64,000 bases of DNA from a bacterium (lineage in GTDB: Bacteria; Actinomycetota; Acidimicrobiia; Spongiisociales; ZC4RG35), in the NCBI GenBank assembly GCA_028823995.1, contig JAPPFD010000018.1, positions 1 through 64,000 of the forward strand, read 5' to 3'. Below are positions 16,796-30,337 of this stretch, in pieces. A program made the position numbers and the translations under genes. The first letter of the stretch is position 1; each line of letters begins with the position of its first letter. The notes under the pieces were generated by a model. That model saw only the letters and a program-made list of their open reading frames with translations, did no database searches and was not told where the DNA came from.

Positions 16796-17917
16796 CTACG
16801 CCGGCGATGCCAGGCGGTTCTCCAGCATCTCCAGCAAGCGCTTCTCCTCGGCGCCGAGTCCTACCACCGACCGCCACCCCGACCCCGAAAGGGCATCCCG
16901 CAACTCCTGCGAACCGGGTATTTCGGGGTCATTCAGCGAAAGCCCGGCCGCGATCGCCTCGCACAGGGCGTCGACCGGCAGGCCCCGGCGGATGGCTTCT
17001 CTCGCCGGTCCCACGAGACGCTCGGTCGGGCCGAGTTTTGTGAGCGGGTTCCTCGCCACCCTCCGGATGGGATCGACCAGGGTAGTGGTCTCGAAGCGTT
17101 CCAGGTTGTACCGCCCGTATCCGGCCAGTTCGTCGCGCCGCCACTCGGGCGACTGGGCGGAAAGCACCCCCGCCATCGTTTCGATGATCTCATCCAGGCG
17201 TTCCCGGATGGTTGGATCGGAGACCGCCTCCGCCACGGTCTCGTGACCCTTTTGCAGTCCGATGAAGGCTGCGGCGGCGTGCAGTCCGTTGACCAGCCAG
17301 AGCTTTCTCTTCCGGTGAAGAGCCAGGTTTTCGACAAGCGTGAACCCCGGCACTCCGGGGTCTTCACCCACCCACTCCTCCCGGGAGATCTTGAAATCGA
17401 ACCGGGCCTCCACCTCCACCGATAGGTCGTCCCCGCTGCCGCCGGGAACCATCCGGTCCACCAGTGTCTCGGGAAACCCCACCCCGGCGGTCGACTCTCC
17501 CAGGAGGCTCTCCACATGCTTCCGGAGCGCCCCGCTGTTGGGATCGGCGTTCTCGCAGGCGAGCACGTTGCGAATGCGGGAGTCACTTCTGGACAGGGCG
17601 GCGGCGACAACGGGCGCCACCCGATCCAGGATTGCCACTCCCACCGCGGTGCACACCACCTCCGCCTGGGATGCCTCCTCGGCGGCCCGATCGGCGTCGG
17701 CGCTGTTGACGCCCCGCACACCACGGATCAGCCGGGTCGACCGATTACCGTTTCCCACCTCGATGACCCGGTATTCGCCCTCTCGGTTCAAGAGGTCCAC
17801 CAGGGGGGCGGAGACGTCCAGAAATACCACCTCCCAACCCGCTCGTCCGAACAGCCATCCCAATAGCCCCCTCCCGATGTTCCCGGCGCCGAAGACGGCG
17901 ACCCGCCGTCTCGTCAT
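16796..17917 (-). CDS. mtlD: Mannitol-1-phosphate 5-dehydrogenase
   Basis: A 373-residue polyol-specific long-chain dehydrogenase that oxidises mannitol-1-phosphate to fructose-6-phosphate with NAD. The Rossmann motif VFGAGNIGRGLLG is at residues 8-20, ACENADPNS near 120, and the catalytic Lys/His region reads KLWLVNGLHAAAAFIGL, matching the family. ATG overlaps the IIA stop (ATGA). Together with the IIC, IIB and IIA genes just upstream it identifies the operon as mannitol-type, although a related polyol cannot be excluded. Confidence 0.88.
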   Translation of the reverse strand: MTRRRVAVFGAGNIGRGLLGWLFGRAGWEVVFLDVSAPLVDLLNREGEYRVIEVGNGNRSTRLIRGVRGVNSADADRAAEEASQAEVVCTAVGVAILDRVAPVVAAALSRSDSRIRNVLACENADPNSGALRKHVESLLGESTAGVGFPETLVDRMVPGGSGDDLSVEVEARFDFKISREEWVGEDPGVPGFTLVENLALHRKRKLWLVNGLHAAAAFIGLQKGHETVAEAVSDPTIRERLDEIIETMAGVLSAQSPEWRRDELAGYGRYNLERFETTTLVDPIRRVARNPLTKLGPTERLVGPAREAIRRGLPVDALCEAIAAGLSLNDPEIPGSQELRDALSGSGWRSVVGLGAEEKRLLEMLENRLASPA

Positions 17918-18360
17918 TCAGGCTCGGCGGCCAGGGTGTCCCGGACGAACTCCACGTCGGTGGTGACGGCCAGTCGACTGCATAAATCCTCGTCGTCCAG
18001 CACCTCGGCCAGATGCGACATCACCGCCAGATGCTCCTCGCCCACCGCGGCCAGCCCGAACACCAGATAAGCTACGTCGTCCTCGTCTCCCCAGGGGATC
18101 CCGGCGGGGTACTGGGCCAGCACCAGGGAGGTGCGTTTGATCAGACCACGGTCCTCGTAGGTGCAGTGGGGGAGGGCGATCCCGTTGCCGAGGAAGGTCG
18201 AGATCACTTCCTCGCGGGCCCGCATCGAGTCGCCGTACCCGGCTTCCACCGCTCCCAGATCGACCAACATCCCGGCCACCCGGTCGATGGCCTCGCTCTG
18301 GGTTTGGGCCTCCTCGCCCAGCGTGATGGCCTCGATGGATGTAACCGACTTCTCGGCCAT
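17914..18360 (-). CDS. mtlF: PTS mannitol-type IIA component
   Basis: A 148-residue IIA of the mannitol/fructose family, which takes phosphate from HPr. The active His65 lies in GNGIALPHCTYED. The rest (IPWGDEDDVAYLVFGLAA, HLAVMSHLAEVL) is typical. It starts six bases after the IIB stop and overlaps mtlD by four bases. Having IIA and IIB as separate small proteins resembles firmicute and actinobacterial mannitol systems rather than the fused MtlA of E. coli. Confidence 0.92.
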   Translation of the reverse strand: MAEKSVTSIEAITLGEEAQTQSEAIDRVAGMLVDLGAVEAGYGDSMRAREEVISTFLGNGIALPHCTYEDRGLIKRTSLVLAQYPAGIPWGDEDDVAYLVFGLAAVGEEHLAVMSHLAEVLDDEDLCSRLAVTTDVEFVRDTLAAEPE

Positions 18361-18366
18361 GTCCGT

Positions 18367-18690
18367 CTAGATCCCGACCACGTCCCCGCCGGCGGAGAGG
18401 GTATTCACCAACTGGGTCAGGGCGGGGTCGTTCAGAAAGGTCCGGAAGGGCACCACCGCTGCATGGGGGGCCACCTGCTTGACCCGGGCGGACAGTCCCT
18501 GGTGGGTCACCACCACATCGGCGGCTCCCGGTATGTCATGCACCGGGGAGTGGGTGACCTTGATGTTGAGCTTGGCCTTTTTGACCTTCTTCTTGAGAGC
18601 ATTGGTGACCATCAGACTGGAACCCATCCCGGCCTCACAGGCCAGGACGATCCACTGGACATCCGCTGCTGGTTTTACGACTGAACTCAT
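18367..18690 (-). CDS. PTS mannitol-type IIB component
   Basis: A 107-residue IIB, which receives phosphate on Cys18 (VLACEAGMGSS) and hands it to the sugar in the IIC channel. I start it at the ATG at 18690, preceded by GGAGG at the right distance; a longer frame to 18747 would begin inside the hairpin that separates it from IIC. The remaining sequence (DVVVTHQGLSARV, VVPFRTFLNDP) fits the family. Confidence 0.9.
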   Translation of the reverse strand: MSSVVKPAADVQWIVLACEAGMGSSLMVTNALKKKVKKAKLNIKVTHSPVHDIPGAADVVVTHQGLSARVKQVAPHAAVVPFRTFLNDPALTQLVNTLSAGGDVVGI

Positions 18691-18712
18691 GTTGCGATCC
18701 TCCGGATAAAAG

Positions 18713-18748
18713 AGTGGGGAGAGCCTCCCAGCGGAGGCTCTCCCCACT
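18713..18748 (-). terminator. Perfect 16-bp hairpin between IIC and IIB genes
   Basis: A perfect 16-base-pair stem (18713-18728 with 18733-18748) around a four-base loop lies in the 78-base gap between the IIC stop and the IIB start. On the transcribed minus strand it is followed by CTCTTTTAT, a short U run. It looks like an intrinsic terminator or a stabilising 3' hairpin that lets IIC be made in a different amount from the downstream genes. Since the downstream genes have no other obvious promoter, partial read-through is likely. Confidence 0.7.
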
Positions 18749-18768
18749 TTATACGAGGGGAAGTTGGT

Positions 18769-19860
18769 TTAGGTCGGGATACCGGGCATGGTGCCGATCA
18801 TCTCGTCCGTGCCCTCGGTTTCCTTAACCGGGGAGATCCGCAACAGCAGCGTACCTACCACGAATGCCGCCGCGACCGCGGCTGCCATTCCTAGATACAC
18901 ACCTAGGTGTTCGCCTTTTGGCGTCACCGCCAGATAGGCGAAGATCGAGCCAGGCGAAGGCGTTGCTGAAAGTCCCGCATCGAAAGCCACGAAGATGATG
19001 TCAGCGACGATACCGCCGGCCCACATCGAGAGAATCATGATGGGATGCATGAGAACATACGGGAAGTAGATCTCATGGATTCCACCGAAGAAGTGGATAA
19101 CGATGGCGCCCGGAGCCGAAAGCTTGGCCATTCCCTTACCGGCGAACCAGTAAGCAAGCAGCAAACCGAGGCCCGGACCGGGGTTGGTTTCCAGCAGGAA
19201 GTAGATCGACTTGCCTGTTTCGGCAGCGTCCGCTGCACCCAGTGGCGCCAGGATTCCGTGGTTGATGGCGTTGTTGAGGAACAACACCTTTCCGACTTCG
19301 ATTGGTATGTCTGCGACCGGTAAGAGTCCTGCATCGGTGATGCCCTCCACCAGGTTCCCGAGAGCATTGGCGATACCGCCCATGATCGGGCCCATGATGT
19401 AACGACCCACGATGGCAAGGCCGAAGCCCAGGATGCCGAGCGAGAAGTTGTTGTAGAGCATCTCGAAGCCGACGGCAACCTTGTCCTGGAAGGCCTGGTC
19501 GATTTTCATCATGATCCAAGCCGCCAGGGGACCGACCAACATGGCGCCCAAGAACTGAGGCGGGTCACCGGTGGCGCCGCTTTCCAGTGCGAAGTCGGCA
19601 CCCACGATGATCCCCATGGTGGCAATGGAGCCAATCACGCCTCCCCTGTGGCCGTACACCATCTTGCCGCCTGTGAATCCGATCAATACGGGCAGCAGGT
19701 AGACAATGATGGGGCCTACCAGTTCGAGCAGATCGTCGTTAGGAGTCCATCCGGTGGGAATGAAAAAGGCGGTGATCAATCCCCAGGCTATGAAAGCCCC
19801 GATGTTGGGAATGACCATACCCGCCAAGAACCCGCCAAACTTCTGTAGACGTGCGAGCAT
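18769..19860 (-). CDS. mtlA: PTS mannitol-type IIC (membrane) component
   Basis: A 363-residue membrane channel of the mannitol PTS. It starts MLARLQKFGGFLAGMVIPNI, as in MtlA, has about eight membrane or re-entrant segments, and carries the conserved GGIHEIYFPYVLM loop, with the Glu needed for sugar binding, near residue 265. There are no fused IIB or IIA domains; these are the next two genes. AAGGAGG precedes the ATG. It is the first gene of the operon and is followed by a strong hairpin. Confidence 0.93.
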   Translation of the reverse strand: MLARLQKFGGFLAGMVIPNIGAFIAWGLITAFFIPTGWTPNDDLLELVGPIIVYLLPVLIGFTGGKMVYGHRGGVIGSIATMGIIVGADFALESGATGDPPQFLGAMLVGPLAAWIMMKIDQAFQDKVAVGFEMLYNNFSLGILGFGLAIVGRYIMGPIMGGIANALGNLVEGITDAGLLPVADIPIEVGKVLFLNNAINHGILAPLGAADAAETGKSIYFLLETNPGPGLGLLLAYWFAGKGMAKLSAPGAIVIHFFGGIHEIYFPYVLMHPIMILSMWAGGIVADIIFVAFDAGLSATPSPGSIFAYLAVTPKGEHLGVYLGMAAAVAAAFVVGTLLLRISPVKETEGTDEMIGTMPGIPT

Positions 19861-20969: not shown

Positions 20970-22112
20970 ATGAGCGCGTCCTATTCGGGTCTAGAGCTCC
21001 CGGCGAGGGACTTGTTCAAACTCTCCGGCGGCGTGGCCTGGCTGAACAGCGCCTACCTGGGGGCCCGGGCCATCCCGGTCGCCGAGGCTGCGGCGGCGGC
21101 GGTCAACCGCCCGCTCTCCGAAGTGGAAGTCTCCGACTTCTTCACACCCGGCGATCGAATCAGAGAACTGTTCTCCACCCTGGTGGGCGGAGATGCGGAC
21201 GGCGTGGCGCTGGTTCCGTCCGCCAGCTACGGCGTGGCCACCGCCGTCTCGGCCCTGGGCACGGGCCCGGGCGACAAGGTGCTGATGCTGGACGAACAAT
21301 TCCCCGCCATGGTGTATCCCTATACGGAGAGGGGCGCCGAACCGGTGTACGTCAAGCGTCCTCTCGATGACGACTGGACCGCCGCGGTGTTGGACCGCCT
21401 GGACGAAAGCATCTCGGTGGTGTCGGCGCCGGCATGTCATTGGACCGACGGGACCCGGCTGGATCTGGCGGTGGTGGGCGCGGCCGCCCGAGAGGTTGGC
21501 GCCAGGTTGGTGCTGGACCTCTCCCAGAGTCTTGGCATGGCCCCCTTCGAGGCCGCGGCGATCCGGCCCGACTTCGTGGTTTGCGTCGGATACAAGTGGC
21601 TGCTGGGCGCTCCGGGCATGTCGTATCTGTGGGCGTCGCCGGAGAACCGGGACGGAAGGCCGCTCGACGCCAACTGGATGGCCAGGGCGGGGAGCGAGGA
21701 CTTCTCGCGGGTCAACGAGTACCGCTGGGAACTGGCCTCGGGGGCCCGGCGCTACGACGCCGGCCAGACCTGGAACCTATGGCTGTCGGAGGCGGCCTGC
21801 GCTGGTCTGGAGATCGTTGCAGGAGTGGGGGCAGACCGGCTTCAGGCTTACAGCGGGCTCCTCACCGACCACCTGGCGAAGGAAGCCGCCGCACTGGGGC
21901 TGGTCGCCCCGGGGCCGCAGTTTCGAAGCGCCCACCTGTTGGGCCTGCGACTGCCGGAGGGCGCCGATCCGCGTTCCCTGGTCGCAGAGTTGGCCGAGAG
22001 GAAGGTGCACGTCTCCGTGAGAGGCAACTCGGTGCGGGTCTCGGCCCACATGTGGAACACCCGGGACGACATCGACCGCCTGCTGGAAGGCTTGGCCGCC
22101 TGGGTGGGGTGA
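20970..22112 (+). CDS. Class V aminotransferase / cysteine desulfurase-like
   Basis: A 380-residue PLP-dependent enzyme of aminotransferase class V. The Schiff-base Lys209 lies in VCVGYKWLLG, Asp183 and Gln186 in LVLDLSQSLG contact the cofactor, and ACHWTDGTRLDL fits the substrate side. No desulfurase catalytic Cys loop is obvious, so it may be a transaminase, isopenicillin-N-epimerase-like or kynureninase-like enzyme rather than a sulfur donor. It follows the CxxC protein directly. The convergent nuclease-like gene lies 98 bases beyond. Confidence 0.8.
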   Translation: MSASYSGLELPARDLFKLSGGVAWLNSAYLGARAIPVAEAAAAAVNRPLSEVEVSDFFTPGDRIRELFSTLVGGDADGVALVPSASYGVATAVSALGTGPGDKVLMLDEQFPAMVYPYTERGAEPVYVKRPLDDDWTAAVLDRLDESISVVSAPACHWTDGTRLDLAVVGAAAREVGARLVLDLSQSLGMAPFEAAAIRPDFVVCVGYKWLLGAPGMSYLWASPENRDGRPLDANWMARAGSEDFSRVNEYRWELASGARRYDAGQTWNLWLSEAACAGLEIVAGVGADRLQAYSGLLTDHLAKEAAALGLVAPGPQFRSAHLLGLRLPEGADPRSLVAELAERKVHVSVRGNSVRVSAHMWNTRDDIDRLLEGLAAWVG

Positions 22113-22210
22113 ACGAAAAGCGCCAAGGGGGACGGGCTGAGGGGTCTTAATTGGCCCCGTGGCGTTGCCTCCCCAATCGCCAGTATTGCCACTGCTGGTA
22201 AGGACGGCTT

Positions 22211-23071
22211 TTAGAGTCCGTCTTTACTGAGCTGGATCAGATCCTGGAGCAGGTCAACGTAGTCGCTGTCCTTTAAGGTGTCTGCGTTGACATTGACTCG
22301 GTACATCCCTCTTTGGTATGGAAGTGTGTCTACGCCGGTTTCATCTATTTTGCTGTCCATGTCGTCGGAGCGCTGGATGCGAAAAAGCACGGTAACGTGC
22401 TTTTTTCCTGGCCTCATTCTCACGTAGTTATTCGCTACTCCGTCCTTGGCGAGGCCGATGTAGTGCTTGGTGTAGTTAAGGTCCATACCGCTGTCTTGCT
22501 GTTGGATCATTTGGTGAACCATGTCAACAATCCGCTTCATGACTGCCGGTGTTGACTTCTTGTTCCAATAGTTGCGGTCCGTCAGGACGGGTGTGTCATC
22601 TTCGTCCGTCCCTAGTGCTGCGTGGTCCAGCACTTTGGTGAACACCAGTGCCACACCCTGTTCCTTGACGTCCAGGGCTGTCATCTGGATGGCCACGATT
22701 GGAATGAAGCCGTTGAACAGGCTGATCACGTTGAAGAACCGGCTCGTGATCTCCTCGGCTACGATGACGGCTACGTGCTCGTATTGGGGAAATCGGCGAC
22801 GTTCGTTATCCCAGTATTCGAGTGTCCGGATGATGTGTGACGGATCTGTGGGACCTAGCTGCAACTCGACTTCGTATCTTGTGGAACTCTCGGCGTCGGT
22901 GAGCAACATGTCCAGTTCACCGGCGCGAGGTTGACGGCGGCGGACTTCTTTTACATCAAGATCGCCAAGCCCCAGAAGGGAGGGGTCCTCCTCAAGAACT
23001 TTCTGAACCCAATCTTCACTGAGATCAGGCCTCTTCCTGATTCCAATCTTTGGCAATTTGACATGTTTCAT
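22211..23071 (-). CDS. PD-(D/E)XK nuclease-like protein, probably acquired
   Basis: A 286-residue protein. The N-terminal half looks like a restriction-type nuclease fold: Asp54 in GELDMLL and the RYEVELQLG strand (Glu67, Glu69, Gln71), spaced like DUF91/NucS-type active sites. The C-terminal part (about residues 215-285) resembles DUF5655-type domains. Function is inferred, not known. The start is ATG 23071 after GAGGTG rather than ATG 23113. The gene is clearly less GC-rich (near 50 % by eye) than its neighbours, a sign of transfer. No methyltransferase or other defence gene is beside it, so it is not a usual restriction-modification pair. Confidence 0.6.
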   Translation of the reverse strand: MKHVKLPKIGIRKRPDLSEDWVQKVLEEDPSLLGLGDLDVKEVRRRQPRAGELDMLLTDAESSTRYEVELQLGPTDPSHIIRTLEYWDNERRRFPQYEHVAVIVAEEITSRFFNVISLFNGFIPIVAIQMTALDVKEQGVALVFTKVLDHAALGTDEDDTPVLTDRNYWNKKSTPAVMKRIVDMVHQMIQQQDSGMDLNYTKHYIGLAKDGVANNYVRMRPGKKHVTVLFRIQRSDDMDSKIDETGVDTLPYQRGMYRVNVNADTLKDSDYVDLLQDLIQLSKDGL

Positions 23072-23167
23072 CGTTACACCTCGTATCAGGATGGATGATA
23101 AGTTCGTCACCATCGGTTAGCAAACCTAAAACAATGAGGCCGGCTAACTGTTGTTGCGCCACCCCCG

Positions 23168-25882: not shown

Positions 25883-26902
25883 TCAAGCAGATTCGGACTG
25901 CGATCCCAGGTTGGAGAGGAGCACGATCCCGGTGCCGATCAGCAGCGCCACGGGGTTGGCGATGGAGACTTCGGCGAAGAGCCATATCCAGAGCATCTGG
26001 AGCACCGGGGTGAAGAAGATGATCCGCTGGACGCTCAAACTGGAGGTCACGTACATCGAATACCGGTAGCTGAGCGCCCCGCCCGCGTTGAAGATCCCGA
26101 TAAGGGTCAGGAACCCCACGGTGGACCAGGACAGTTCGAAAGTCTTCTCGGTTGGTGGGAAGAACAGTGCGCTTCCCAGGAGGGTTAGCGGGAGGCCGAT
26201 GACCCGCGCTGCCACTGCCGAATAGGTGGAGTTCCAGGCCAGGTCGTTCGGGTCGTCGTCGGGCCAGCTCATCAGCCGGCCGACGGAAATAGTCCCCCAC
26301 AGACTCCAGACGCCGGTGGCCGTGCCGATCACCGCCACGGTTATCCCCTGCCAGTTGAGGGCGCCGACCTCCCCGGTCTCCGACCAGATCACCAGTGCGG
26401 CGCCCAGGAAGGAGAAGGCCATCAGCATCCAGTACTTTCCTGTGATGACGTGGGGGGATGCCCGGTCCCTGGAGGAGATTCTCCTGCCCAGTCTGGCGGC
26501 CGCCCAGACCATGCCGATGAAGGCCAGTTGGAAGATGATGGTCACCACCAGAGGGTCGATCAGGGTGGCGGCCCAGACCCAGAAGGCCAGATCGAGAGCG
26601 AATCCGATCGTCATCCAGAATGCCGGCGTTCGCGCCACCTCCCAGGGTGTCCGGATACGAACCGGCTCCCCGTCCTTGCCCCAGTACAGCAGCAGCCCGG
26701 CGGCTTTTCCCTTCCAGTCCCTGTTCTTTGCGGGGAGCACGAAGAGCAACGCGGCCAGACCCGCCCCTTGGAAGACGAACGACCAGGAGCGCCACACGAA
26801 GGGGTCGTCGCTGGTGTGGGTGAAGAGGTAGAGCACCGGTCCCACGGAGAGGCCGAAAGCCGCACTCCCGGCCCATAGGGTCCCCTTGGTGGTTGGGTTC
26901 AC
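25883..26902 (-). CDS. DMT-superfamily transporter, tandem copy B1
   Basis: A 339-residue membrane protein with about ten helices, the last of four tandem paralogues. All four share the start VNPTTKGTLWA at a GTG, the block WVWAATLIDPLV, SETGEV.LNW and SLSVQRI.FF. I use the common GTG at 26902, because the start falls at the same place in every copy and yields 339 residues in three of them; an ATG at 27019 would add 39 residues of Arg/Pro-rich sequence. Substrate unknown. By eye the four copies are 60-70 % identical, more to each other than to copies A1 and A2. Confidence 0.78.
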   Translation of the reverse strand: MNPTTKGTLWAGSAAFGLSVGPVLYLFTHTSDDPFVWRSWSFVFQGAGLAALLFVLPAKNRDWKGKAAGLLLYWGKDGEPVRIRTPWEVARTPAFWMTIGFALDLAFWVWAATLIDPLVVTIIFQLAFIGMVWAAARLGRRISSRDRASPHVITGKYWMLMAFSFLGAALVIWSETGEVGALNWQGITVAVIGTATGVWSLWGTISVGRLMSWPDDDPNDLAWNSTYSAVAARVIGLPLTLLGSALFFPPTEKTFELSWSTVGFLTLIGIFNAGGALSYRYSMYVTSSLSVQRIIFFTPVLQMLWIWLFAEVSIANPVALLIGTGIVLLSNLGSQSESA

Positions 26903-27044
26903 GGGTCGAGGGGTCCTGTCTCTGGTCTGGCTGGCGGGCGACGTAGTCCGGTTGGGCAACCGCCCACGGGCCTTCGGTGCTTCCGAGGTTAGCCTTCCGG
27001 CCCCTCCCGTGGGCTGCATGGTCGGGGTAAAGCAGGCGTCGGAT

Positions 27045-28073
27045 TCAGAGTGGATCCTTGGTTTGGGCCTGGGATCCCAGGTTGGCGAGGAGCACGATCC
27101 CGGTGCCGAGCAGTAGCGCTTGGGGGTTGGCGATCGAGACTTCGGCGAAAGCCCAGATCCAGAGCATCTGGAAGGCGGGGTTGAAGAACATGATCCGCTG
27201 GACGCTAAGACTGGAAGTTACGTACAGCGAGTACCGGTAGCCCAGCCCCCCGGCCGCATTGGAGACTCCGAGGAGGCTGAGGAGTCCCAACATGGCCCAG
27301 TTGATCTCGAAGCTGTTCTCAGTGGGCGGGAAGAAGACTGCGCTTCCCAGGAGAGCCAGGGGGAGGGCGAGAATCCGACCGGCCACCGCCGCAAAGGTGG
27401 CGTTCCACACCAGATCGTGAGAGTTGCCGCCCGGCCATCCCATCAGATGCCCGGTTGAGATGGATCCCCAGAAGGTCCCGACTGCGGTGGCGGCGCCTGC
27501 GAGAGAAAGGACGACACCGAACCAGTTGAGGGCGCCGACCTCCCCGGTCTCCGACCAGATGACCAGGGCGGCCCCGAAGAAGGAGAGGACCATCAGGGCC
27601 CAATACTTCCCGCTTATGACATGGGGCGAGTTGCGCCGACCAGCGGACATTTTCTTCCCCAGCCTGGCGGCCATCCACACCATCCCGATCACGAACAACT
27701 GGAAGATCGTGTTTACCACCAGGGGGTCGATGAGGGTTGCAGCCCAAACCCAGACGGCCAGGTCCAAGGGGAAGCAGACCACCATCCAGAACGCCGGGGT
27801 TCGCAGCACTTCCAGGGGATTTCGGACCCGAACCGGTTCGCCGGTGTCGCCCCAGTAGTACAGGAGTCTTTTGGCTTTCTGCCTCCAGTCCTTATCGGTG
27901 GCGGGAACCAGGAGGATCACCGGGGCCAACAAAAGCGTCTGGAAGACGAACGACCAGGACCGCCAGACGAACGGATCGTCGCTCACATGTGTGTAGAGGT
28001 ATAGAAGGGGCAACCAGGAGCCCAAGACCACCGAGCTGACGGCCCACAGCGTCCCCTGGGTGGTTGGCTTCAC
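27045..28073 (-). CDS. DMT-superfamily transporter, tandem copy B2
   Basis: A 342-residue paralogue with about ten membrane helices, starting VKPTTQGTLWAV at GTG 28073. Hallmark segments are WRSWSFVFQTLLL, WVWAATLIDPLVVNTIFQLF, ALVIWSETGEVGALNWFG and LYVTSSLSVQRIMFF. Only 34 bases separate its start from the end of copy B3, so those two are likely on one transcript. Among the copies it is closest by eye to B1 and B3. Substrate unknown. Confidence 0.8.
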   Translation of the reverse strand: MKPTTQGTLWAVSSVVLGSWLPLLYLYTHVSDDPFVWRSWSFVFQTLLLAPVILLVPATDKDWRQKAKRLLYYWGDTGEPVRVRNPLEVLRTPAFWMVVCFPLDLAVWVWAATLIDPLVVNTIFQLFVIGMVWMAARLGKKMSAGRRNSPHVISGKYWALMVLSFFGAALVIWSETGEVGALNWFGVVLSLAGAATAVGTFWGSISTGHLMGWPGGNSHDLVWNATFAAVAGRILALPLALLGSAVFFPPTENSFEINWAMLGLLSLLGVSNAAGGLGYRYSLYVTSSLSVQRIMFFNPAFQMLWIWAFAEVSIANPQALLLGTGIVLLANLGSQAQTKDPL

Positions 28074-28107
28074 CGGTCGGAGGGTCCTGTCGGGTTCACG
28101 GGGGAGG

Positions 28108-29127
28108 TCACAGTGTCTTGGCCTGGGTTCCCAGGTTGGAGAGGAGCACGAGCCCTGCTCCGATGAGGAGAGCAGAGGGGTTGGCGATGGATACGTCTAC
28201 GAAGATCCATATCCAGAGCATCTGGAGAATGGGAGAGAAGAACATGATCCGCTGGACGCTCAAGCTGGTGGTGACGTAGAAGGAGTACCTGTGGCTGGAC
28301 GCTCCAACCGCGTTGAACGCTCCTGTCAGGGCCAGGAGCCCCAGGGTGGACCAGAAGAGGTCGAAACTGTTTTCGGTCGGGGGGAAGAACAGTGCGCTCC
28401 CGCCCAGGGTGAGGGGGAGGGCCAGAAACCGTCCGACCACCCCTGAGAAAGAGGAGTGCCACACCAGGTCGTTGGGGTCGGTGCTCGGCCACGCGATGAG
28501 GCGGCCGAGGGAGATGGTTCCCCAGAAACTGCCGACCGCGGTGGCGGTTGCGGCGAAGGCCACCACTATGCCCAGCCAGTTGAGGGTTCCGACCTTGCCG
28601 GTCTCCGACCAGATGACGAGGGCGGCGCCCAGGAAGGAGAGGCCCGTCAGCGTCCAGTACTTCCCGCTCATGACGTGAGGGGAGGCCTGGCGCCCGGTTG
28701 ACATCTTCTTGCCGAGCCGGGCCGCCATCCAAACCAGGCCGATCAGGAACAACTGGAAGATGATGGTCACCACCAGCGGGTCGATGAGAGTCGCCGCCCA
28801 AACCCAGAATGTCAGGTCGAGAGCGAAGGAGATCACCATCCAGAACGCCGGAGTGCGCAGCAGTTCTATCGGATTCCGGACCCGGGCCGGCTCTCCGCTA
28901 TCCCCCCAGTAATAGAGCAGTCGTCGGAGTTTCTTCCTCCAGTTCCTCTTCGAGGCGGGGACCAGCAGGAGCACGGGGACCAACCCCGCCGCCTGGAAGG
29001 CGAACAGCCAGGAGCGCCACACGAATGGGTCGTCGCTGACATGGGTGAAGATGTAGAAAAGAGGTAGCCAGGAACTGGTGGCCGCCGCCCCCACTGCCCA
29101 CATTGTCCCCTTGGTGATCGGGTTCAC
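28108..29127 (-). CDS. DMT-superfamily transporter, tandem copy B3
   Basis: A 339-residue paralogue with about ten membrane helices, starting VNPITKGTMWAVG at GTG 29127; the frame stays open to 29286 but the added residues have no counterpart in the other copies. The motif LTFWVWAATLIDPLVV, a lysine-bearing LGKKMSTGRQASPHVMSGKY and SLSVQRIMFF are conserved. A 190-base spacer separates it from copy B4. Substrate unknown. Confidence 0.8.
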   Translation of the reverse strand: MNPITKGTMWAVGAAATSSWLPLFYIFTHVSDDPFVWRSWLFAFQAAGLVPVLLLVPASKRNWRKKLRRLLYYWGDSGEPARVRNPIELLRTPAFWMVISFALDLTFWVWAATLIDPLVVTIIFQLFLIGLVWMAARLGKKMSTGRQASPHVMSGKYWTLTGLSFLGAALVIWSETGKVGTLNWLGIVVAFAATATAVGSFWGTISLGRLIAWPSTDPNDLVWHSSFSGVVGRFLALPLTLGGSALFFPPTENSFDLFWSTLGLLALTGAFNAVGASSHRYSFYVTTSLSVQRIMFFSPILQMLWIWIFVDVSIANPSALLIGAGLVLLSNLGTQAKTL

Positions 29128-29317
29128 CGGTCGAACGGTCCTCTTCTCTGCTCTGGCCTGCTTGGGGTTGGTGACTGGATGACCCCGGTGGGCAGTCGCC
29201 GGCGAGGCTTCGTCCTTCATGAAGGTTAGCTCTCGGGTACCGCCCGGTAGGGGAACGGGACAGCGGGTTACGGACCCTTTCGCCATCAGGGCGGAGGGAT
29301 GATGACGCAGACGGGAT

Positions 29318-30337
29318 TCAAGCGGACTTGGTCTGGTGACCCAGGTTGGAGAGGAGCACGATGGCGGTGCCGATCAGGAGGACCTGGGGCTTGGCGATGG
29401 AGACGTCGGCAAAAATCCAGAGCCACAACATCTGAAGGGGCGGGGAGAAGAACATGATCCGCTGGACGCTCAACCTGGAGGTCACATACAGCGAGTAGCG
29501 GTGGCTGACCGCCCCGGCCATGTTGAACACTCCTATCAGGCTCAGAAAACCGAGGGTGGTCCAGGTGAGGTCGAAGCGGTCGTCGGTGGAGGGAAAGAAG
29601 AGGACGCTTCCCAGAAGCGTCAGGGGGAGGGCGAAGAACCGTCCCACCACGGCCGAGAGAGAAGCGGCCCAAACCAGGTTGTTCGGGTCGTCGTCGGGCC
29701 ATGTCATGAGACGCCCGGTGGAGACGGTCCCCCAGAAACTTCCGATTCCGAAGGCGGTGGCGGCGAGGGCCAAGGCTATGCCCAGCCAATTCAGAGTCCT
29801 GACTTCCCCGGTCTCCGACCAGACGACCAGGGCGGCGCCGAGGAAGGAAGACGCCATGAGGGCCCAGTGCTTTCCGGCTATGACATGCGGCGCGGTCCGG
29901 CGTCCGGCGGAGATCTTCCTGCCCAGCCTGGCTGCCATCCACACCATCCCGATCGGGAACAACTGAAAAACGAGGGTCGCCACCAGCGGGTCGATCAGGG
30001 TAGCTGCCCAAACCCAGAAGGTCAGATCCACGGCGAAGCCGATGACCATCCAGAAGGCGGGTGTTTTCAACACCTCCAGCGGGTTCCGGACCCGGACCGG
30101 CTCACCGCCGTCTCCCCAGTAGAACGGGAACCTACGGATCTTGGCTCTCCAGTCCTTGTCCTGGGCCGGCATCACGACCAAGGCCAGCCCCAACACCCCC
30201 GACTGGAAGAGGATGAGCCATGAGCGCCAGACGAAGGGATCGTTGCCGGTATGGGTATTCAGAAAGAACAGGGGCAACCAGGAGAGGGAGACAGCTGCTC
30301 CGACGGCCCATAGGGTGCCCTTGGCAGTTGGGTTCAC
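29318..30337 (-). CDS. DMT-superfamily transporter, tandem copy B4
   Basis: A 339-residue paralogue with about ten membrane helices and the first of the four in transcription order, starting VNPTAKGTLWAVG at GTG 30337. It carries the same hallmark blocks, with small changes such as LVATLVFQLF and SRLSVQRIMFF. The bases around the start (CGACCGGTGAACCC on the minus strand) are nearly the same in all copies. The gene lies divergent to the VOC protein gene. Substrate unknown. Confidence 0.8.
   Translation of the reverse strand: MNPTAKGTLWAVGAAVSLSWLPLFFLNTHTGNDPFVWRSWLILFQSGVLGLALVVMPAQDKDWRAKIRRFPFYWGDGGEPVRVRNPLEVLKTPAFWMVIGFAVDLTFWVWAATLIDPLVATLVFQLFPIGMVWMAARLGRKISAGRRTAPHVIAGKHWALMASSFLGAALVVWSETGEVRTLNWLGIALALAATAFGIGSFWGTVSTGRLMTWPDDDPNNLVWAASLSAVVGRFFALPLTLLGSVLFFPSTDDRFDLTWTTLGFLSLIGVFNMAGAVSHRYSLYVTSRLSVQRIMFFSPPLQMLWLWIFADVSIAKPQVLLIGTAIVLLSNLGHQTKSA

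Follow-up and report, generated by a model that had tools for sequence, protein, structure and literature searches.

Introduction

The described proteins closest to the one studied here are two families of defence candidates, PDC-S18 and PDC-S11, and the NucS/EndoMS nucleases (PF01939). PDC-S18, a single-gene phage defence candidate in PADLOC, is a protein of about 300 amino acids with a NucS-like nuclease in its front part and a DUF5655-like domain at its back. PDC-S11 has a C-terminal DUF4268 domain and, according to a passage of PMC10855318, was present in 10 P. aeruginosa strains, 90% of which were phage-resistant, a correlation that concerns a related family only. NucS has an additional N-terminal domain, a D-E-K catalytic site and a core distribution; in TkoEndoMS the catalytic residues are given as D165, E179 and K181 in a passage of PMC7343888. 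Among the titles, abstract beginnings and passages covered by our literature search, no experiment was found on PDC-S11, PDC-S18 or the family described below, and the search returned no paper with DUF5655. The window analysed here (the whole stretch of 64,000 nucleotides) encodes a protein that lies outside the full definitions of PDC-S11, PDC-S18 and NucS, and it was thus placed as a variant of the single-gene PD-(D/E)XK defence candidates.

The gene and its composition

The gene and the elements around it are as follows.

22211..23071, minus strand: gene of a two-domain nuclease-like protein of 286 amino acids (ORF and translation; purifying selection against a congener copy)
23077..23082, minus strand: ribosome-binding site GAGGTG, kept in congener G005
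23095..23123, minus strand: promoter-like site TTGCTA-17-TATCAT, both hexamers identical in congener G005
22114..23162, no strand assigned: variable inter-gene segment between conserved, converging genes (congener comparison)

The ORF runs from ATG to TAA and has 286 codons plus the stop. Translation from another in-frame ATG, at 23113, would lengthen the protein by 14 residues; the start at 23071 was preferred, since the upstream ATG falls inside the spacer of the promoter-like site and GAGGTG precedes the ATG at 23071. The promoter-like arrangement was found once upstream of the gene, against a mean of 0.4 in shuffled sequences.

A first-pass annotation, made from the sequence, had described the gene as clearly different from both neighbours in base composition, and this was borne out: its GC content is 0.523, compared with 0.688 for the adjacent ORF at 20970-22112 (plus strand), which we take from its sequence to be aminotransferase-like, and 0.666 for the long minus-strand frame from 23168, the 3' part of which is presumably a D-threonine-aldolase-like gene. 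It is the most AT-rich gene-sized stretch in the window, whose overall GC is 0.647. When GC was computed in 861-bp windows at steps of 50, the mean was 0.647 with a standard deviation of 0.028, which places the gene about 4.5 standard deviations low, and all such windows with GC of 0.54 or less overlap it. Its GC3 is 0.64, while 36 of the 45 other long ORFs, a set that surely includes some wrong frames, have a GC3 of at least 0.70. Part of the difference is to be ascribed to protein composition, since the second-position GC is also low (0.33).

Predicted structure and active site

The predicted protein features, in genomic coordinates, are the following.

22646..23020, minus strand: NucS/EndoMS-type PD-(D/E)XK nuclease domain, residues 18-142 (AlphaFold2 model and structure matches)
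22859..22912, minus strand: predicted catalytic motif D54 ... E69-x-Q71, with Gln replacing the NucS Lys (invariant in 22 of 22 rows; hhalign pairings)
22214..22582, minus strand: C-terminal DUF5655/DUF1801-like domain, residues 164-286, fast-evolving, the proposed recognition part (structure matches, pairwise identity)

Single-protein scans of Pfam, NCBIfam, PHROGs and PADLOC gave no confident family, and a profile search of PDB sequences returned a single match that is not credible (E 0.2). AlphaFold2, supplied with an alignment of 12 sequences including the window protein, produced a model with a mean pLDDT of 84.8 and a pTM of 0.51, the latter making the mutual placing of the two domains uncertain. 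Residues 18-142 of the model superimposed on NucS/EndoMS 2vld_A with Z 14.9 (rmsd 1.9, 108 residues), and the domain matched 5gke_A with Z 14.6 (rmsd 2.6, 114 residues); the best match outside the NucS/EndoMS group was 1y88, with Z 10.0. The NucS-type fold of the modelled domain is thus well supported, in agreement with the PD-(D/E)XK-like core that the first-pass annotation had proposed.

The same annotation had assigned a DUF5655-like tail, and this also holds, albeit on a weak sequence match: DUF5655 (PF18899) was detected in the window protein at E 0.21 and 12.1 bits, below the curated cut-off of 24, and at E up to 1 it was found in 9 of the 12 aligned members, the window protein among them, with a best value of 4.9e-5. 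Structurally, residues 164-286 resemble the YdhG-like protein 9t2w_A (Z 9.4) and the DUF1801 protein 2oc6_A (Z 9.2), and residues 180-286 resemble the DUF419/YjbR proteins 2a1v (Z 8.5) and 2fki (Z 7.8). The tail of the model also gave a weak match to the C-terminal DNA-binding domain of T4 MotA (5jlt_B, Z 6.0), a score in a range that may reflect a mere common arrangement; since this match is weak, a role of the tail in recognising DNA is speculative.

In a 22-row alignment, which includes the window protein and seven rows from IMG/VR, residues E19, D54, E69, Q71, D76, H79, R82 and D88 are invariant in all rows, and the window protein therefore retains every family-invariant residue. By hhalign, D54, E69 and Q71 pair with the D, E and K of the PDC-S18 E-x-K motif, and E69-x-Q71 pairs with the E-x-Q of PDC-S11. 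The hhalign alignment to the NucS of the host covers residues 19-65 only, so that the D is paired and E-x-K is not reached; the equation of Q71 with the NucS Lys accordingly draws on the modelled fold and on our reading of the sequences, and is to be taken as a probable pairing. Gln instead of Lys could mean weak or absent cleavage. It is to be noted that some restriction enzymes, among them BglII, are active with an E-x-Q motif; a literature search on this point returned no paper.

Comparison with known families

The window protein has the same two-part layout and approximate size as PDC-S18, and hhalign aligned the two with a probability of 95.8 over residues 6-233. Against the PDC-S18 model itself, however, the match had an E-value of 0.0013 over 87 of 307 positions, and there was no full-length match. 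Proteins that match PDC-S18, strongly in L056 and L057 and less so in L059 and L061, are all of two domains and carry E-x-K, in contrast to the E-x-Q of the window family. The L059 gene lies, by our own reading, directly after an HsdS-like gene. At E up to 1, PDLC04944 was matched by 3 of the 12 members, with a best value of 2.1e-6.

The core E-x-Q-L-G-x-x-D-x-S-H is shared with PDC-S11 (30% identity over 121 columns, hhalign probability 96.2), the E-x-Q-L-G portion being based on the two PDC-S11 proteins examined. The two families differ at the C-terminus, where PDC-S11 (L002) has DUF4268 and the window protein its DUF5655-like domain; even at E up to 1, none of the 12 members showed a match to DUF4268.

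The host genome itself encodes two PDC-S11 proteins, one of them shown with DUF4268. Their genes (L038:7419-8366, minus strand, on contig C27, and L039:8335-9267, plus strand, on contig C22) code for proteins that are 81% identical, and each is directly followed by an ORF of about 170 amino acids with an EVKASG motif, restriction-nuclease-like by eye, so that the pair is possibly a two-gene unit; the ORF in L038 had no Pfam match. The PDC-S11 gene of L039 sits in an island (L039:3821-14516) with two C5-methyltransferase-like genes and an Hsp90-type ATPase gene, recognised by eye, and a Phage_integrase (Pfam).

NucS/EndoMS and the window protein have the same catalytic-domain fold. They differ in that the N-terminal domain of NucS is missing here, with only about 18 residues preceding the nuclease domain, in the D-E-Q site that stands where NucS has D-E-K, and in the scattered occurrence of the window family. 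The host also encodes a NucS above the Pfam cut-off, with E-x-K; in its assembly NucS appears twice with identical scores (G000:C1:118557-118913 and G000:C4:3254-3610), maybe a duplicated piece of contig. Lastly, Gp54 of Bacillus phage G was matched by Foldseek nearly over its full length (295 alignment columns, E 6e-15). Its identity to the window protein is 15%, and because the whole-chain TM-score is 0.38 and the rmsd 16.8, the domains of Gp54 are probably set differently.

Unequal evolution of the two domains

The two parts of the protein were found to evolve at very different rates. Over the 231 pairs of the 22 rows, the mean identity was 62.2% in the nuclease half (residues 19-150) and 32.8% in the tail (residues 164-286), and the nuclease half was the more conserved in every one of the 231 pairs. 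Comparison with the copy in congener G005 gave a dN/dS of 0.18 for the whole gene, indicating purifying selection; the value was 0.08 over codons 1-150 and 0.37 in the tail. The simplest reading of this split is a catalytic part that stays conserved and a recognition part that changes, the alternative being that the tail is under weaker constraint. The intact ORF and the dN/dS of 0.18, together with the retention of the family-invariant residues, led us to reject the earlier suggestion that the gene might be a mobile remnant.

Insertion site within the genus

Both flanking genes are present in all five other genomes of the genus, where they converge on the site; what lies between them varies. 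In G005 the site holds a copy of the nuclease gene with 70% protein identity. In G001 it is nearly empty, with 110 bp between the flanks, and in G002 about 470 bp separate them and contain no ORF longer than 82 amino acids. The site in G003 (L032) holds a DUF433 and DUF5615 pair (Pfam 46.4 and 25.6 bits, both above the cut-off), which we take to be of toxin-antitoxin type. In G004 (L035) the flanks are on separate contigs, and a DUF433-like ORF, recognised from its likeness to that of G003, adjoins the right flank; near the contig end, a DUF5615-like start lies beside this ORF and soon diverges.

Between the window and G005, dS was 1.2 for the nuclease gene, compared with 0.36 and 0.27 for the flanking genes. 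This difference makes simple vertical descent at the site doubtful and suggests that the two congener copies are older, or more exchanged, than their surroundings; an allele replacement or separate acquisition is likely. Despite the high dS, the two genomes agree at 65 of the 72 positions just before the ATG.

Distribution and phylogeny

The gene does not belong to the core of its relatives: it was found in two of the six genomes of the genus and in three of 60 relatives at E 0.001 or better, its own genome being counted in both cases and the genomes being drafts. Two extra weak matches in its own genome are the PDC-S11 genes. Among 396 genomes drawn from the phylum, five (its own included) gave a match at 1e-10, which in one case extended over no more than 60 residues.

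In a wider search, 12 contig loci with 43-70% identity were collected across Actinomycetota, Chloroflexota, Bacillota and Pseudomonadota. One of them (L004) is the congener G005, and two (L006 and L007) are nearly identical, for which reason L007 was left out of the alignment and later steps. The GC of the gene was below that of its locus in 12 of 12 contig loci, by 0.4 to 16 points, in a comparison made without the L017 row. Fourteen plasmid records matched, and in two the match spanned 80% or more of the query; nine Bradyrhizobium plasmid records are distant (27-34% identity). As for viruses, an alignment-based scan matched seven IMG/VR contigs, of which L055 is distant, whereas a single-protein scan of viral contigs gave no confirmed match, and tblastn against 50,697 phage records at E 0.1 returned none.

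A tree was built without the short plasmid copy L041, L046, and the partial L047 and L048. The window copy groups with that of the congener (98/96), and these two are weakly joined by an Acidimicrobiia row and by the row of G038, from the same order. A separate group of 11 rows (98/97) mixes copies from Bacillota, Pseudomonadota and IMG/VR, and L055 forms a very long branch whose placement and closeness are unsure. The grouping of the window copy with its near relatives and the mixed group of 11 point to some shared descent atop wide transfer. Overall, horizontal mobility of the gene is well supported.

Neighbouring genes of the homologues

When the 286 ORFs of 21 loci were grouped, the only widely common group was the nuclease gene itself, found in 20 loci; in the twenty-first (L041) the centre ORF had been miscalled. 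The next groups spanned three loci, with two of the three identified as UvrD-type helicases, and then two loci. No conserved partner of at least 60 amino acids was therefore found among the 21 loci. ORFs were called from 60 amino acids by a longest-ORF rule, by which wrong frames are possible in GC-rich DNA.

In two Bacillota, McrBC-like genes come immediately after the nuclease gene. One is Eubacterium uniforme (L013), where the stop of the nuclease gene overlaps the start of an AAA_5 gene; next come an McrBC-family gene (PF10117), an AbiLi/HEC-01A-like ATPase and RloB, while GajA- and GajB-like genes lie upstream of the nuclease gene. The other is Robertmurraya (L009), in which the genes that follow are a related AAA_5 gene and one for DUF2357-PDDEXK_7; we read this order as McrBC-like. 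A NERD-UvrD helicase is found on the other side of the L009 copy. A Priestia plasmid (L040) has type I restriction genes about 6.7 kb off and an HD-CE/ATPase gene nearby. In the virus-classed L051, a PglZ-like gene, just below its cut-off (24.6 against 25 bits), is situated two genes before the nuclease gene and a YhcG-type gene after it. In the phage-classed L053 the nuclease gene is flanked by an HNH gene and a ParB-methylase gene and precedes the terminase, and in the phage-classed L052 it is near terminase; portal, polymerase and other phage families are present among the 42 neighbour ORFs of the seven IMG/VR contigs. The grouping thus gave no single conserved methylase; among the neighbours that were named, L049 and L053 each have a methylase near the nuclease gene.

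At 1e-8, 24 PADLOC models, most of them for UvrD-type helicases, had matches among 68 neighbour ORFs of 11 loci on chromosomes or plasmids, and no model was matched at this level by more than two of the 68; this set comprises ORFs of at least 100 amino acids and leaves out L004 (the congener site), L041 and L013, some of whose eight neighbours were scanned separately. Several metabolic families are among the matches listed (25 of 45 families); both results are given by model or family. A general association with defence islands is thus weak, defence neighbours being the exception and metabolic genes occurring among the neighbours; apart from the two copies that adjoin McrBC-like genes, most have no clear defence neighbour. 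The first-pass suggestion of a solitary defence nuclease accordingly stands in its first word; the defence part is plausible, with a few homologues among defence genes and most not.

Proposed function and alternatives

On our present estimate there is about an even chance that the gene encodes a solitary, complete, horizontally spread restriction-type nuclease directed against foreign DNA, with a D-E-Q site and a fast-changing recognition tail. The calculations gave the fold, the conserved motif, purifying selection, a scattered distribution and no conserved partner; we infer catalysis, DNA as the substrate, a choice of target and an anti-phage effect. In such a mechanism, the NucS-fold domain would cut DNA at its D-E-Q site, while the DUF5655/DUF1801-like tail would probably read the target. 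The target would be a feature of the invader, i.e., a modification, a structure or a sequence that the host lacks, for which reason no partner methyltransferase would be needed. A single gene would thereby provide a restriction-type defence against mobile elements, phages included, and phage-borne copies would serve in competition between phages. Since no conserved methyltransferase partner emerged from the grouped neighbours and two loci have McrBC-type company, a modification- or structure-dependent target appears favoured. A more specific form of the proposal, which we advance tentatively, is an undescribed one-gene restriction-type defence in which the D-E-Q NucS-fold nuclease has a fast-evolving DUF5655/MotA-C-like tail that senses modified or otherwise foreign DNA, spread across phyla by plasmids and phages and placed in McrBC-like clusters in some Bacillota.

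The copies on phage-classed contigs, with terminase, HNH and methylase genes nearby, the phage families among contig neighbours, the match to phage G Gp54 and the fact that no neighbour is common to more than 3 of the 21 loci could also be explained if the nuclease primarily served the phage or mobile element that carries it, by degrading host DNA, processing the genome or invading a site in the manner of homing, the chromosomal copies being cargo or leftovers. This is rather unlikely, considering that the close homologues found lie mostly on chromosomes or plasmids, that viral matches amounted to seven IMG/VR loci and none among the phage records, that no intron or split target gene was seen at the site in the congeners, and that two copies are embedded in McrBC-like clusters. 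Loss of activity would be another possibility, namely a DNA-binding protein with an inactive nuclease fold, e.g., a regulator or silencer, in keeping with the Gln that replaces the E-x-K Lys in all rows and with the weak MotA-like resemblance of the tail. Nonetheless, the D, E and Q do not vary in the family, nor do D76 and H79, E-x-Q-L-G is common to the two PDC-S11 proteins examined, and E-x-Q enzymes of the BglII kind cut, which makes such a protein quite improbable.

A role in DNA repair, as an accessory nuclease related to NucS/EndoMS and cutting at mismatches or damage, would suit the best structural match, but the missing N-terminal domain, the replaced catalytic Lys, the NucS with E-x-K already encoded by the host, and a patchy distribution unlike that of a repair housekeeper render it very doubtful. 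We give hardly any weight to a solitary toxin of toxin-antitoxin type with its antitoxin elsewhere; the DUF433/DUF5615 pair at the same site in G003 speaks for it, and the lack of a conserved partner among the 21 loci against it. If the restriction-type reading is true, PDC-S11 and PDC-S18 would be joined into one nuclease superfamily with exchangeable recognition tails, and a small set of one-gene homologues would be at hand for phage testing, including the Robertmurraya, Burkholderia, Eubacterium and Priestia plasmid copies. As it stands, the gene is one more plausible defence candidate.

Other features of the window

Elsewhere in the window, four tandem minus-strand ORFs of about 340-390 amino acids occupy 25883-30337, the first three being clearly related membrane proteins by eye. 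Positions 16796-19860 hold a mannitol-type PTS cluster with a mannitol-1-phosphate dehydrogenase-like gene, likewise named by eye.
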